Part shown: one piece after another, positions 52,155 through 56,519 of the stretch
Layout of the letters: each line of letters opens with the position of its first letter
Position numbering within the stretch: the stretch's first letter is position 1
Source of the DNA: Roseomonas sp.
GTDB taxonomy: Bacteria > Pseudomonadota > Alphaproteobacteria > Acetobacterales > Acetobacteraceae
Direction: 5' to 3'
NCBI GenBank assembly: GCA_020249465.1
Contig: JADCFP010000048.1
Location: 62,001-126,000, forward strand
DNA: 64,000 nt
Program-made: the position numbers and the translations under genes
The notes under the pieces: model-generated
What the model saw: only the letters and a program-made list of their open reading frames with translations
Database searches by the model: none
What the model was told of the DNA's origin: nothing

Positions 52155-52249
52155 TAAGGCACCGCTAAACCTTGTTACGAAAAATCGATTCCGTTGCGGC
52201 GGAATCGGCTGTATCACTTGGTAGCGGCCTCTGCCGCCCGGAGTATCCG

Positions 52250-53095
52250 ATGCGGTTTTCTGCTCTTTTTGCCCTCGCGCTGATCCTGCCCACCACGCCT
52301 GGCTTCACCCAGGGGGCAAAGGACGCGCCCGCGGCCGCGCCGCTTGCGCCACTCACGGCAAGGGCACTCGCCTCCCATCGCGGCATTTACGAACTGACAT
52401 TGGATCGCGCGCGGGAGAATGCCGGCATTGTCGAGGTTTCCGGCGCCATGCTCTACGAACTCATTGACGCCTGCGAAAGCTGGGCATCGCGCCAGCGCTT
52501 CACCATGACGCTGCGTAACCGCGAAGGCACGGAACTTGAAACCGGGTCCGATTACGCCACGCTGGAATCCATGGATGGTCGAAACCTGCGCTTCAGCCTG
52601 ACGCAGGTAACCCAGGGTGCTGTCAGCAGCCGCGTCGCGGGTCAGGCGGAGCTTGGCGCCGATAGCAGCGGTGTGGCGCGCTATAGCGAACCGGAAGCGA
52701 AGGAATTGCCCATCCCGCCCGGCACGCTTTTGCCCAATACGCATACCATCGCTGCGCTGAATGCGGCGCGTGCCGGCCAGCGCCTGCTGGTGGCGCCGAT
52801 CTTTGACGGTACCTCCGCCGATGGCGCGCAGCAGACGACCACATTCCTGTCGCCCTGGCAGGGGCCGCAGCCCATCGCTGAAGCGCCGAGCCTTTCCGCG
52901 CTTGGATCATCGCGCATGCGCATCGCCTTTTTTGAGCCCGGTGCAGATCAGGCCGGTGGGGCGAGCACGCCTTCCTATGAAGTGTCTCTCCGCTATTTCG
53001 AAAATGGCGTAGCGGATGACATGATCATGGATTTCGGCGATTTCACCGTGCGCGCCAAGCTGGTGCGTCTGGAAGACGCGCCGGGCGGCTGCTGA
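52250..53095 (+). CDS. EipB-like envelope integrity protein (DUF1849)
   Basis: A 281-residue exported protein with a signal peptide (RFSALFALALILPTTPGFTQ). The mature domain begins ASHRGIYELTLDRAREN, the characteristic EipB opening, continues through DACESW and ends in GGC; EipB is a periplasmic beta-spiral protein with a conserved disulfide, and two such cysteines are present. GGAG precedes ATG 52250. It ends six bases from the convergent binding-protein gene. Confidence 0.82.
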   Translation: MRFSALFALALILPTTPGFTQGAKDAPAAAPLAPLTARALASHRGIYELTLDRARENAGIVEVSGAMLYELIDACESWASRQRFTMTLRNREGTELETGSDYATLESMDGRNLRFSLTQVTQGAVSSRVAGQAELGADSSGVARYSEPEAKELPIPPGTLLPNTHTIAALNAARAGQRLLVAPIFDGTSADGAQQTTTFLSPWQGPQPIAEAPSLSALGSSRMRIAFFEPGADQAGGASTPSYEVSLRYFENGVADDMIMDFGDFTVRAKLVRLEDAPGGC

Positions 53096-53101
53096 CCAGA
53101 C

Positions 53102-54679
53102 TCATACCCGCCGCAGGTTCCACAGAAAGGGGTTCGGCCCCTGCAAGACGCCCGTCAAATCGCGCCGGAAAGCGGTGCGTAACCGGAACAGCCCGGTCGG
53201 CGCGAAGGGCAGCGATTCCCAGGTAATTTCCTGCAAGCGGCGCATCGCAGCGTCTTGTGCCGCCTGATCATTGGCAGCGATCCAGGCTTCCACCTGCGCT
53301 TCCGCATCCGCATCTGTTGGCCAGCCAGGCCAGGCGGCCTGCCCATTCATGCGAATGGCGAAGCTGACGGCTGGGTTGGCGATGGTCGCCGCCGGGCCAT
53401 TGGTATTGTGCAAATGCCAGCCGCCTTGCGCCGGCGCGTTGCGGTTATTGCGCCGCGCCAGAATGCTCGCCCAGTCTGATTCGATCGGCTGCATATTGAC
53501 GCCGAGCTTCCTCATCAGCTCCACCGTCAGGCGGCCCTGCTGCGTCACTGCGGGGAAATCGCTTGGGTTGATGTGGATAATAGGCTCCCCGGCATAGCCG
53601 GCTTCGCGCAGCGCGGCGCGGGCGCGTTCCATCGCCGCTTCACCGCGTGCGGCGGGCGGGAATTCCACCACACCTGGTAGGCCGCAGGGGAACATGGCGT
53701 GGCATTCCTGCCAGTCACCTTGCAGCGCCACCGCCGACATGAAATCCGATTGCACTATCACATCACGAATGGCGCGGCGCACCCGCACATCATTGAAGGG
53801 CGGGTGCAGATGATTGAAGCGGAGAAAACCCAAAAACCCGTTCGGGTCATAAATCTGCGTCTGCGTATTGCGGTCCCGTTCCAGCACCGGCACCAGATCG
53901 GGCAAGGGGTATTCGATCCAGTCAATTTCACCAGTACGGAGTGCGGCTGCCGCCGTGCCGCCATCCGGGATCCAGATCATCTCAAGCCTGTCGAAATGCA
54001 CGCGCTTGCCGCCGGAAGCGGCTTCGGCAGGTTCATCGCGCGGGACATAGGCGGCATTGCGCGCATAATGGCTGCGCGCACCTTGCACATATTCATTGGC
54101 AATGAAGCGCCACGGCCCGCTGCCGATCATATGTTCCAGGCCAAGCGACCGATCGCCGGGATTATTCGCAATGCGTTCCGGCATCATGAAACAGGGTGAG
54201 GCGCCTGGCTTGGCCAAGGCATCAAATAGCGCGGGGAAGCGCCGATGCAGGCGGAATTCGATAGTGCGATCATCAGTCGCGGAAAGCTCGGCCGTGGCGC
54301 GCATCAGGATTTGGCCGAAGCCATCACGGCTCGCCCAGCGCTTGATGCTCGCCACGCAATCTTGCGCGCGCACCGGTTCGCCATCATGCCAGCGCAGCCC
54401 GTCGCGCAGGCGGATTTTCACGCGCTTGCCGTCATCTTCCACGCTATGGCCTTCCGCCATTTGCGGGCGCGGTTGAAGCGCGCGATTGGCGCCATAGAGC
54501 GTATCAAACACGCAATAGGCATGCGTGGTGATGATCGTGCTGGGGCTGAAGATCGGGTCCAGATTGGCGAGTGCGGCCTGCGGCATGAAGCGCAGCGTGC
54601 GCGCGCGGCTGGGCTGGGCTAGGGCCGGGCCGGCCAGAGGCGCCGCGATTGCTGCGGCCAAGAGTGAACGACGATACAT
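53102..54679 (-). CDS. Family 5 solute-binding protein under a TPP riboswitch
   Basis: A 525-residue extracytoplasmic binding protein of the peptide/nickel family (SBP_bac_5). The signal peptide has a twin-arginine-like start (YRRSLLAAAIAAPLAGPALA). Typical strands are LANLDPIFSPSTIITTHAY, RDGLRWHDGEPVRAQDCVASI and a GSGPWRF segment. AAGGA lies seven bases before ATG 54679. The message begins with a TPP riboswitch (54783-54874), so thiamine, its pyrimidine or thiazole part, or a breakdown product is the likely ligand. No permease or ATPase gene is nearby. Confidence 0.88.
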   Translation of the reverse strand: MYRRSLLAAAIAAPLAGPALAQPSRARTLRFMPQAALANLDPIFSPSTIITTHAYCVFDTLYGANRALQPRPQMAEGHSVEDDGKRVKIRLRDGLRWHDGEPVRAQDCVASIKRWASRDGFGQILMRATAELSATDDRTIEFRLHRRFPALFDALAKPGASPCFMMPERIANNPGDRSLGLEHMIGSGPWRFIANEYVQGARSHYARNAAYVPRDEPAEAASGGKRVHFDRLEMIWIPDGGTAAAALRTGEIDWIEYPLPDLVPVLERDRNTQTQIYDPNGFLGFLRFNHLHPPFNDVRVRRAIRDVIVQSDFMSAVALQGDWQECHAMFPCGLPGVVEFPPAARGEAAMERARAALREAGYAGEPIIHINPSDFPAVTQQGRLTVELMRKLGVNMQPIESDWASILARRNNRNAPAQGGWHLHNTNGPAATIANPAVSFAIRMNGQAAWPGWPTDADAEAQVEAWIAANDQAAQDAAMRRLQEITWESLPFAPTGLFRLRTAFRRDLTGVLQGPNPFLWNLRRV

Positions 54680-54782
54680 CCCCAATTCCTTCGCTTCCTG
54701 TCGGATAACGCGGGGAAGGGAGCTTTGGCCCAGCACGCGCAAGCGCCAGCTTTGGGGCGCAAAACGCGAGCAAACGGGCGAT
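54680..54782 (-). promoter_or_regulatory. Riboswitch expression platform
   Basis: Between the aptamer and the start codon the RNA contains CCCTTCCC (54713-54720), an exact complement of GGGAAGGG in the aptamer's 3' strand (54786-54793) and also able to pair with the GGAAG/AAGGA ribosome site (54694-54698, 54687-54691). This reads as a translational switch: with TPP bound, the CCCTTCC segment is free to mask the ribosome site. No T-run terminator is seen. Confidence 0.6.
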
Positions 54783-54874
54783 GCACCCTTCCCTACGCCG
54801 GTCCGAACCGGGTCAGGTTCCAGGGGTCGCGGGTGAAGCCCGCCTCTCAGCCCCAAAAGGGCTCCCCCAGGTGT
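54783..54874 (-). promoter_or_regulatory. TPP (THI-box) riboswitch aptamer
   Basis: On the minus strand the conserved blocks occur in order and spacing: CTGAGA (54845-54850), GAACCTGA (54813-54820) and GCGTAGGGAA (54789-54798). A closing P1 stem can be drawn between CACCT (54869-54873) and GGGTG (54784-54788). The aptamer is about 92 bases and lies 103 bases before the start of the binding-protein gene. Confidence 0.93.
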
Positions 54875-54983
54875 CTCAGGTATTTAATTGCGCCCTCACG
54901 CAGGCTTGCGCAAGGGCGGCGGTGGCGCGGGGGGCGCGCAAGGGGGTAGAAGGGGCGAAACATTCGCCAAAGGGGGATCGCCC

Positions 54984-56519
54984 ATGTCCAGCACCACCAC
55001 CCTGCCGCCCGTCATTCGCCTGCATCCCGGTGATGGCGTGGTGATTGCGCGCATTCCACTCACGCCCGGTACGGAAGTGGCACCCGGCATTAGCGTCGGT
55101 GAAAGGCGCATCCCGCCTGGCCACAAGGTCGCGATCCGCCCGCATGCAAAGGGCGAGCCCATCAAGCGCTATGGCCAGATCATTGGCTTTGCGACGGATG
55201 CGATTGAACCTGGCGCCTGGGTGCATACGCATAATTGCGAAATGGGTGATTTCGCGCGCGATTACGCCTGGGGCCAGGATGCGAAGCCGACCGATTATGT
55301 GGATGTGCCGGCAAGCTTCATGGGCATTCGTCGTGCCGATGGCCGGGTCGCCACACGCAATTACATCGGCATCATCACATCGGTGAATTGTTCCGCCCAT
55401 GTCGCGGAATTGATTGCACGTCAGTTTGAGAAAAACCCGATCACCGGCGATGATCCTTTGGCCGCCTGGGGCAATGTGGATGGTGTGGTGGCGCTGACGC
55501 ATAAAACCGGCTGCGGCATGACCATGGATGAACCGCTGCGGCTGCTGCGGCGTACCTTGGCGGGCTTCGCGCGGCATGCGAATTTTTCCCATGTGATCGC
55601 GATTGGCTTGGGCTGTGAGGTCAATCAGCTTGGCCCCATGCTGGAAGAACAACGCCTGACCGGGCGGCTGCGCAGCATGGATATTCAGGATAGCGGCGCG
55701 CGCGCCACCGTGATGAAGGGCATTGATTTCGTGAAGGAGGTTTTGGCGGAATCCAATACCGCCAAGCGCGAAGCCGTCCCCGCATCCGAGCTTTGCGTCG
55801 CACTGCAATGCGGCGGTTCGGATGGCTATTCCGGCATCACCGCCAATCCAGCACTTGGTGCGGCTTCCGATTTGCTGGTGCGCCATGGCGGCACCGTCAT
55901 CCTGTCCGAAAGTCCGGAAACCTATGGCGCGGAGCATTTGCTGACGCGCCGCGCGACCTCTCGCGAAGTCGGCCAAAAGCTTGTTGACGTGATGCATTGG
56001 TGGGAAGATTACACCGCCCGCCAAGGTGCGGAGATGAACGCCAACCCATCGCCTGGCAATAAGGCAGGTGGGCTCACGACCATCCTCGAAAAATCGCTTG
56101 GCGCCATGGCCAAGGCCGGCACCACCAATCTGGTGGAGGTCTATCGCTATGCGGAGCCCGTTACCGCCAAGGGTTTTGTTTTCATGGATACGCCTGGCTA
56201 TGACCCGGTGGGGGCGACAGGTCAGGTGGCGGGTGGCGCCAATCTTGTGTGTTTCACCACGGGGCGCGGCAGCGTCTTTGGCATGAAGCCGGCGCCATCC
56301 ATCAAGCTTGCCACCAATACCACCATGTATGATCGCCTATCGGAAGATATGGACATCAATTGCGGCACGGTGCTGACGGGTGGTGAAAGCGTGCAGGCAT
56401 GCGGTGAGCGCATTTTCGACCTGATGCTGCGCACCGCTTCCGGCGAGCCCACCAAAAGTGAAGCACTTGGCTTCGGCGCGCAGGAATTCGCCCCCTGGAT
56501 GCTGGGAGCAACCATGTGA
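54984..56519 (+). CDS. UxaA family sugar-acid dehydratase
   Basis: A 511-residue two-part dehydratase of the altronate/galactarate dehydratase (UxaA/GarD) family: an N-terminal SAF domain (about residues 1-95, with HTHNCEMGD) and a catalytic region with TSVNCSAHVAELIAR, LTHKTGCGM and ALQCGGSDGYSGITANPALG. It removes water from a sugar acid to give a 2-keto-3-deoxy acid. GGGGGAT precedes ATG 54984. The neighbouring SDR and FAH genes suggest a 6-deoxy-hexonate substrate, but this is inference. Confidence 0.88.
   Translation: MSSTTTLPPVIRLHPGDGVVIARIPLTPGTEVAPGISVGERRIPPGHKVAIRPHAKGEPIKRYGQIIGFATDAIEPGAWVHTHNCEMGDFARDYAWGQDAKPTDYVDVPASFMGIRRADGRVATRNYIGIITSVNCSAHVAELIARQFEKNPITGDDPLAAWGNVDGVVALTHKTGCGMTMDEPLRLLRRTLAGFARHANFSHVIAIGLGCEVNQLGPMLEEQRLTGRLRSMDIQDSGARATVMKGIDFVKEVLAESNTAKREAVPASELCVALQCGGSDGYSGITANPALGAASDLLVRHGGTVILSESPETYGAEHLLTRRATSREVGQKLVDVMHWWEDYTARQGAEMNANPSPGNKAGGLTTILEKSLGAMAKAGTTNLVEVYRYAEPVTAKGFVFMDTPGYDPVGATGQVAGGANLVCFTTGRGSVFGMKPAPSIKLATNTTMYDRLSEDMDINCGTVLTGGESVQACGERIFDLMLRTASGEPTKSEALGFGAQEFAPWMLGATM

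Follow-up and report, generated by a model that had tools for sequence, protein, structure and literature searches.

Family-5 solute-binding proteins (SBPs) are usually annotated as peptide or nickel transport proteins. A locus in a Roseomonas sp. genome raises the question of why the gene for such a protein should stand alone behind a TPP riboswitch, what the protein would bind, and through which permease its ligand would enter the cell. The locus lies within a 64,000-nucleotide stretch of DNA, which was analysed at its full length and is referred to here as the window.

The riboswitch and the binding-protein gene

The initial annotation had recognized the conserved THI-box blocks of a TPP riboswitch on the minus strand upstream of the SBP gene and had proposed a search with the Rfam model as a check. 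Infernal cmscan returned a significant covariance match to the TPP family (RF00059) at 54878-54772 on the minus strand, with a score of 71.7 bits against a gathering score of 54.3 (E = 3.9e-12). The match covers all 105 positions of the model (1-105), i.e., a complete aptamer (54772..54878), and it is the only Rfam match above any gathering score in the whole window. The locus had been placed with an error of no more than a few bases: the riboswitch extends to 54878 rather than 54874, and the gene itself occupies 53102-54679. Across the entire genome (4.07 Mb, 97.5% complete), this riboswitch is the single TPP match at E<=0.001. In an alignment of 15 TPP elements, the Rfam pairing is formed in 89.3% of cells and drops to 30.8-56.3% when the partners are slid by 1-3 columns. 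Two-sided changes occur in 14 cells, a number equalled by none of 500 shuffles, and affect five pairs, a number equalled by 38 of 500; these shuffles leave the kinship of the elements in place. The score over the whole model and the compensatory changes establish the element as a member of RF00059, for which TPP binding and regulation are predicted.

The open reading frame behind the riboswitch, as listed, spans 53102-54856 and begins at a TTG within the aptamer. The SBP probably starts at the ATG at 54679, which closely follows AAGGA and gives a protein of 525 aa (53102..54679, minus strand). Its N-terminus, MYRRSLLAAA, looks like a twin-arginine-type signal, and the protein is putatively exported. 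The only Pfam match is PF00496 (SBP_bac_5), at 196.1 bits against a cut-off of 32.4. An AlphaFold2 model built from 39 sequences (pLDDT 89.0, pTM 0.87) replaced an earlier, poor one from 18 orthologues (pLDDT 70.1), and its Foldseek and VIA-align matches are family-5 SBPs, which places it in the family-5 (cluster C) fold. Both lines of evidence agree with the assignment to the peptide/nickel family made beforehand. The closest solved structure is 8VDX, a family-5 SBP of Bordetella bronchiseptica RB50 with 38-39% identity; its title names no ligand, and no relevant paper was found in the literature search.

Between the aptamer and the start codon lies a linker that presumably acts as the expression platform (54680..54771, minus strand). 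In the minimum-energy fold of the leader (54885-54650), the 3' side of the aptamer pairs with the downstream linker stretch CCCTTCCCC, and this fold is no more stable than those of shuffled sequences (z -1.15; 24 of 200 as good). As read from the sequence, the same stretch includes CCTTC, which is able to pair with GAAGG at the ribosome-binding site. CCTTC could therefore pair with either the aptamer's 3' side or GAAGG, so that two mutually exclusive folds are possible. Among 66 leaders, i.e., the 67 switch-bearing loci described below minus one in which no start was found (L116), a stem of at least 6 bp on the ribosome-binding site is present in 43, and this stem reaches p<=0.05 in 12, where 3.3 are expected (60 shuffles each, with related rows). 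The nearest relatives of the window have a stem of about 5 bp, which is not significant. Translational control by hiding of the ribosome-binding site is modestly supported by these leaders, and transcription termination was rejected as a mechanism since leader and linker contain no terminator-like site. Beyond the aptamer, the stretch 54879..54983, which reaches to the likely ATG (54984) of a divergent dehydratase gene, was read directly and is presumed to hold the promoter of the riboswitch transcript; a consensus scan of it found no sigma-70-like site.

Conservation of the pairing

To survey related genomes, as the initial annotation had recommended, a sample of 150 genomes of the family, the window's included, was searched for orthologues, defined by at least 60% identity, below which a gap separates them from relatives at 50%. 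An orthologue is present in 19 genomes (the window and one partial copy, in G088, counted), and in 15 of these (the window and 14 of 18 relatives) a TPP riboswitch lies upstream; the remaining four (G024, G112, G121 and G088) showed none there, a relaxed search included. The analysis was extended to a named collection, the best 80 of 571 relatives. A covariance model built from 15 riboswitches matched just upstream of the gene in 67 of the 80 loci (60.7-118.7 bits), 12 of the 67 belonging to genomes whose element was in the model. Two loci (L119, L143) have fewer than 50 bases before the gene, which leaves the switch present in 67 and absent from 11 of 78 assessable orthologues. Of 35 matches checked against Rfam, the 12 lowest-scoring included, 30 exceed the gathering score; the other five (L100, L102, L108, L110, L121) reach 39.5-48.8 bits, with E values of 1.6e-6 to 3.2e-4.

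The 11 switch-less rows belong to Belnapia, Paeniroseomonas, Roseicella, Dankookia, Paracraurococcus and Craurococcus. A tree was built by a quick method, with midpoint rooting, from 11 paralogues and 80 orthologue rows, namely the window and 79 named orthologues (all except the partial L149). In it, a branch with SH-aLRT support of 100 separates orthologues from paralogues. Because the switch-less rows are nested inside the orthologue clade, a few losses would be a simpler history than many gains. The 11 sampled paralogue loci have no switch upstream. Eleven residues (T52, W190, N208, Y257, Y277, D322, Q381, N427, P454, D456 and W487) do not vary among the 80 orthologue rows, the switch-less ones included, and each is present in at most two of the 11 paralogues. 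Plasmid-borne relatives (108 records) are all below 60% identity and were taken as paralogues. Four records titled Asaia bogorensis or Microbispora (L088, L090, L149, L123) carry a gene 74-97% identical to the window protein; their names look wrong, or the bins contaminated.

The literature was searched for precedents. The transport entries of a B1 gene table (PMC10881298) are thiB, thiT, thiY, thiV, cytX, ykoF, thiPerm and omr1; in that table, in line with the earlier remark that known TPP-controlled importers use other binding-protein families, no family-5 SBP appears. Another source mentions 19 TPP-controlled transporter orthologue groups, listed in its supplement, and its main text does not contain the word "oligopeptide" (PMC3766115). 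In Ketogulonicigenium, a rise in ThiB and YkoF is accompanied by one in an oligopeptide transport protein, the relevant passages mentioning no riboswitch on the SBP (PMC3284542), and the TPP switch treated in PMC4498124 concerns p37, which is not a family-5 SBP. No report of a family-5 SBP under a TPP riboswitch, or in B1 uptake, was found in those parts of the literature that were searched. Riboswitch and family-5 SBP form a genuine pairing that is conserved and, within the scope of these searches, has gone unreported.

Thiamine gene content and the ligand

The window genome has no match to thiC and retains thiD, thiE and thiG, so the species would be expected to depend on an outside source of HMP, the pyrimidine half of thiamine. 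Many aquatic bacteria have no thiC and depend on external pyrimidine precursors of B1, according to two studies (PMC10881298, PMC11452348). Nearly every one of the 19 SBP genomes has the genes retained in the window genome: thiG is full-length in 18 (G138 has a contig end directly after a thiS-like ORF), and thiD is over the cut-off in 17 (all except G090 and G120). Thiamine pyrophosphokinase (PF04263) was matched in none of the 19, where 7 of 14 controls match. ThiP (TIGR01253) exceeded its cut-off in none of the 19 either; weak paralogue matches occur in all 19, and only one control passes. The searches for B1 genes covered thiC, thiD, thiE, thiG, PF04263, ThiP and ThiY, and these genomes may have another importer, such as CytX, ThiV or PnuT, or a thiamine kinase.

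thiC itself is unmatched in five SBP genomes (G000, G044, G120, which is 80% complete, G124 and G141), and none of the five has a TPP match other than the SBP switch. The other 14 have thiC, so the SBP is not tied to auxotrophs; among them are all four switch-less genomes of the sample. A wider test used 49 named genomes (50 of the 80 loci minus L114), comprising isolates and six MAGs close to the window; 11 of the 49 are also in the 150-genome sample. Here thiC is unmatched in 19 (13 isolates and six MAGs), although incomplete drafts or MAGs may account for some of these absences. All 18 judgeable thiC-less genomes carry the switch above the Rfam gathering score (L119 is not judgeable), whereas the 30 with thiC divide into 22 with and eight without it. 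The probability that chance would place all eight switch-less genomes among those with thiC is 0.016, without correction for kinship. Taking both collections together, the nine distinct switch-less genomes tested (these eight, which include G024, G112 and G121, and G088) all have thiC; L114, L135 and L144 are outside this count. On the SBP gene tree, which is not a species tree, the thiC label requires six changes, forced by well-supported branches.

The initial annotation had pointed to a binding protein for thiamine, a precursor or a salvage product, of an unassigned type and perhaps served by a distant transporter. Gene content and conservation support this: the switch is widely kept, permease relatives are missing from nearly all neighbourhoods (see below), and the pair persists where thiC is missing. 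The combination of missing thiC, present thiG, thiE and thiD, and no detected thiamine pyrophosphokinase narrows the ligand towards the pyrimidine side. We hypothesize, with a probability of roughly 55%, that the SBP is repressed by TPP, binds HMP or a related pyrimidine, and passes it to a family-5 ABC permease that it shares with other binding proteins; its ligand, its permease and the direction and mode of its regulation are inferred. At high cellular TPP, the riboswitch would fold around TPP and most likely mask the ribosome-binding site, switching SBP production off. At low TPP, the SBP would be made and would hand HMP to a Dpp/Opp-type (family-5) ABC permease encoded elsewhere and common to other binding proteins. 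The HMP thus imported would be phosphorylated by ThiD and then joined by ThiE to the thiazole made by ThiG. In species with thiC, the SBP would serve salvage; in species without it, such as that of the window, it would be the main supply of HMP.

The riboswitch and its conservation would also fit with an SBP that binds intact thiamine, thiamine monophosphate (TMP) or TPP and delivers it through a shared family-5 permease, TMP then passing through ThiL and TPP being used directly; ThiBPQ-type systems are listed as transporting thiamine, TMP and TDP in a paper cited above (PMC10881298). Without thiamine pyrophosphokinase, however, free thiamine would require another kinase, e.g., of a ThiK type, and the near-universal retention of thiE, thiG and thiD would be unnecessary for import of thiamine alone, so that we consider such a ligand unlikely, albeit a serious candidate.

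A ligand tied to B1 indirectly, such as a metal chelate, an opine, or a peptide bearing cysteine or glycine for thiazole synthesis, is more improbable still. The PDB titles of solved family-5 SBPs name peptides, nickel chelates, opines, glutathione or sialic acid as ligands, and glycine or cysteine from peptides could feed the thiazole branch; yet the presence of the switch in every judgeable thiC-less genome directs attention to the pyrimidine half. A comparison with E. coli DppA bears on the peptide case. R383 and D436 of DppA, which we take to be the Arg and Asp anchoring the two peptide ends, are the residues named as mutated in entry 8Z1Z. By one profile alignment of low depth, both stand opposite gaps in the window SBP, the R383 part hinging on gap placement, and SBP residues 421-434 contain no Asp or Glu. 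The absence of both anchors by alignment weakens a DppA-type peptide-binding reading. That the pairing is a relic or a chance placement of no consequence for the SBP might be read from the 11 orthologues without a switch, but its retention in the other 67 at 58-97% protein identity, the compensatory changes in the riboswitch and the different flanking genes between genera make this highly implausible.

Permease partners and known B1 uptake systems

HMP uptake by a lone SBP would require a permease from elsewhere. The window has no permease or ATPase gene beside the SBP; its flanks are an EipB-like gene (52172-53095, plus strand) and the divergent altronate/galactarate dehydratase gene (54888-56519, plus strand), which bears out the earlier observation that both neighbours are unrelated. 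Flanking families (aspS, rnd, uxaA-like and eipB-like) recur in 6 to 9 of 19 neighbourhoods and are replaced in the others. Neighbourhoods of orthologues were searched with 30 queries, chosen by hydrophobicity from 30 of 84 permease places of the window genome; one of them (L177) proved to be an SBP, leaving 29 intended permeases. Of 98 neighbourhoods, many of which are truncated by contig ends, 97 yielded no relative. The exception, in Rubritepida flocculans (L126), is a permease fragment at a distance of 5.5 kb and next to a further SBP match. In two switch-less genomes (G024 and G112; L072, L073), the orthologue is followed, about 5.3 kb downstream and past a gene common to both, by a further family-5 SBP.

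The window genome contains 84 PF00528 (BPD_transp_1) matches. Each of the 14 Dpp-type stretches that were examined has a family-5 SBP match, on the opposite strand in L234 and L239 and partial in L231; a permease lacking its own SBP, as a candidate partner, was not found among these 14. The genome also holds 41 listed candidate relatives of the SBP, of which nine were scored. Given this number, lone family-5 SBPs may be common in this genome, which would make a permease shared with other binding proteins plausible.

Tentatively, the system may represent a new class of B1-vitamer uptake, in which a lone family-5 SBP, made only at low TPP, directs a shared Dpp-type permease to thiamine's pyrimidine precursor; repeated loss of thiC in Roseomonadaceae would thereby have become possible. 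If so, a vitamin riboswitch would set what a general transporter takes up instead of controlling a dedicated one, a binding-protein class would be added to B1 uptake, and the B1 supply of those Roseomonas, Neoroseomonas, Roseococcus and Rubritepida species in which thiC is unmatched would be explained. The window SBP offers one concrete protein to assay.

To place the SBP among the TPP-controlled genes of the family, 20 TPP sites not preceding thiC or the SBP were picked from the matches listed, and the ORFs behind them were read; names other than ThiY reflect our own reading. Ten head ThiZ-X-Y operons, with ThiY confirmed by search, and six head thiazole genes, thiO-thiG or thiS(-thiG). The remaining four comprise a lone ThiY-like gene, a TonB-receptor-like gene with ThiY, an FAD oxidoreductase, and a second copy of the SBP. 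The first (L204, G087:C37:1-8000) is followed by a zinc ABC importer-like gene and is a second possible TPP-controlled SBP without its own adjacent permease. In the second (L212, G056:C42:140300-150400), genes for a ThiY-like SBP and an MFS-type protein follow the TonB-dependent receptor-like gene, and the arrangement may provide an outer-membrane route for B1 vitamers. The third (L200, G014:C42:31500-40247) is a single FAD-dependent oxidoreductase, ThiO/DadA-like by reading, with no thi gene directly behind it. The SBP copy (L197, G090:C405:34100-36613), also TPP-controlled, lies at a contig end and reflects either duplication or a strain mixture.

Among known systems, ThiXYZ, an ABC importer of pyrimidine vitamers, resembles the window system in having an SBP under a TPP riboswitch, in the same bacterial family and often in thiC-less genomes. 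It differs in that ThiY is NMT1-like and shares an operon with ThiX and ThiZ, whereas the window protein matches PF00496 only and its gene stands alone. ThiY is present in 33 of the 150 sampled genomes, 20 of which lack a thiC match, and never together with the family-5 SBP (0 of 19 genomes; expected overlap 4.2, hypergeometric P 0.006, uncorrected for kinship); 18 of the 43 thiC-less genomes have neither. In ThiBPQ, which is TPP-controlled in many Proteobacteria, ThiB is a periplasmic B1-vitamer SBP, as is proposed for the window protein, but no SBP genome has ThiP over the cut-off. A further comparison is with SAR11, where ThiV, described as the likely HMP importer under a putative TPP switch (PMC11452348; see also PMC10881298), would provide riboswitch-controlled HMP uptake in a thiC-less alphaproteobacterium; unlike the window system, it is a single sodium symporter that operates without a binding protein.
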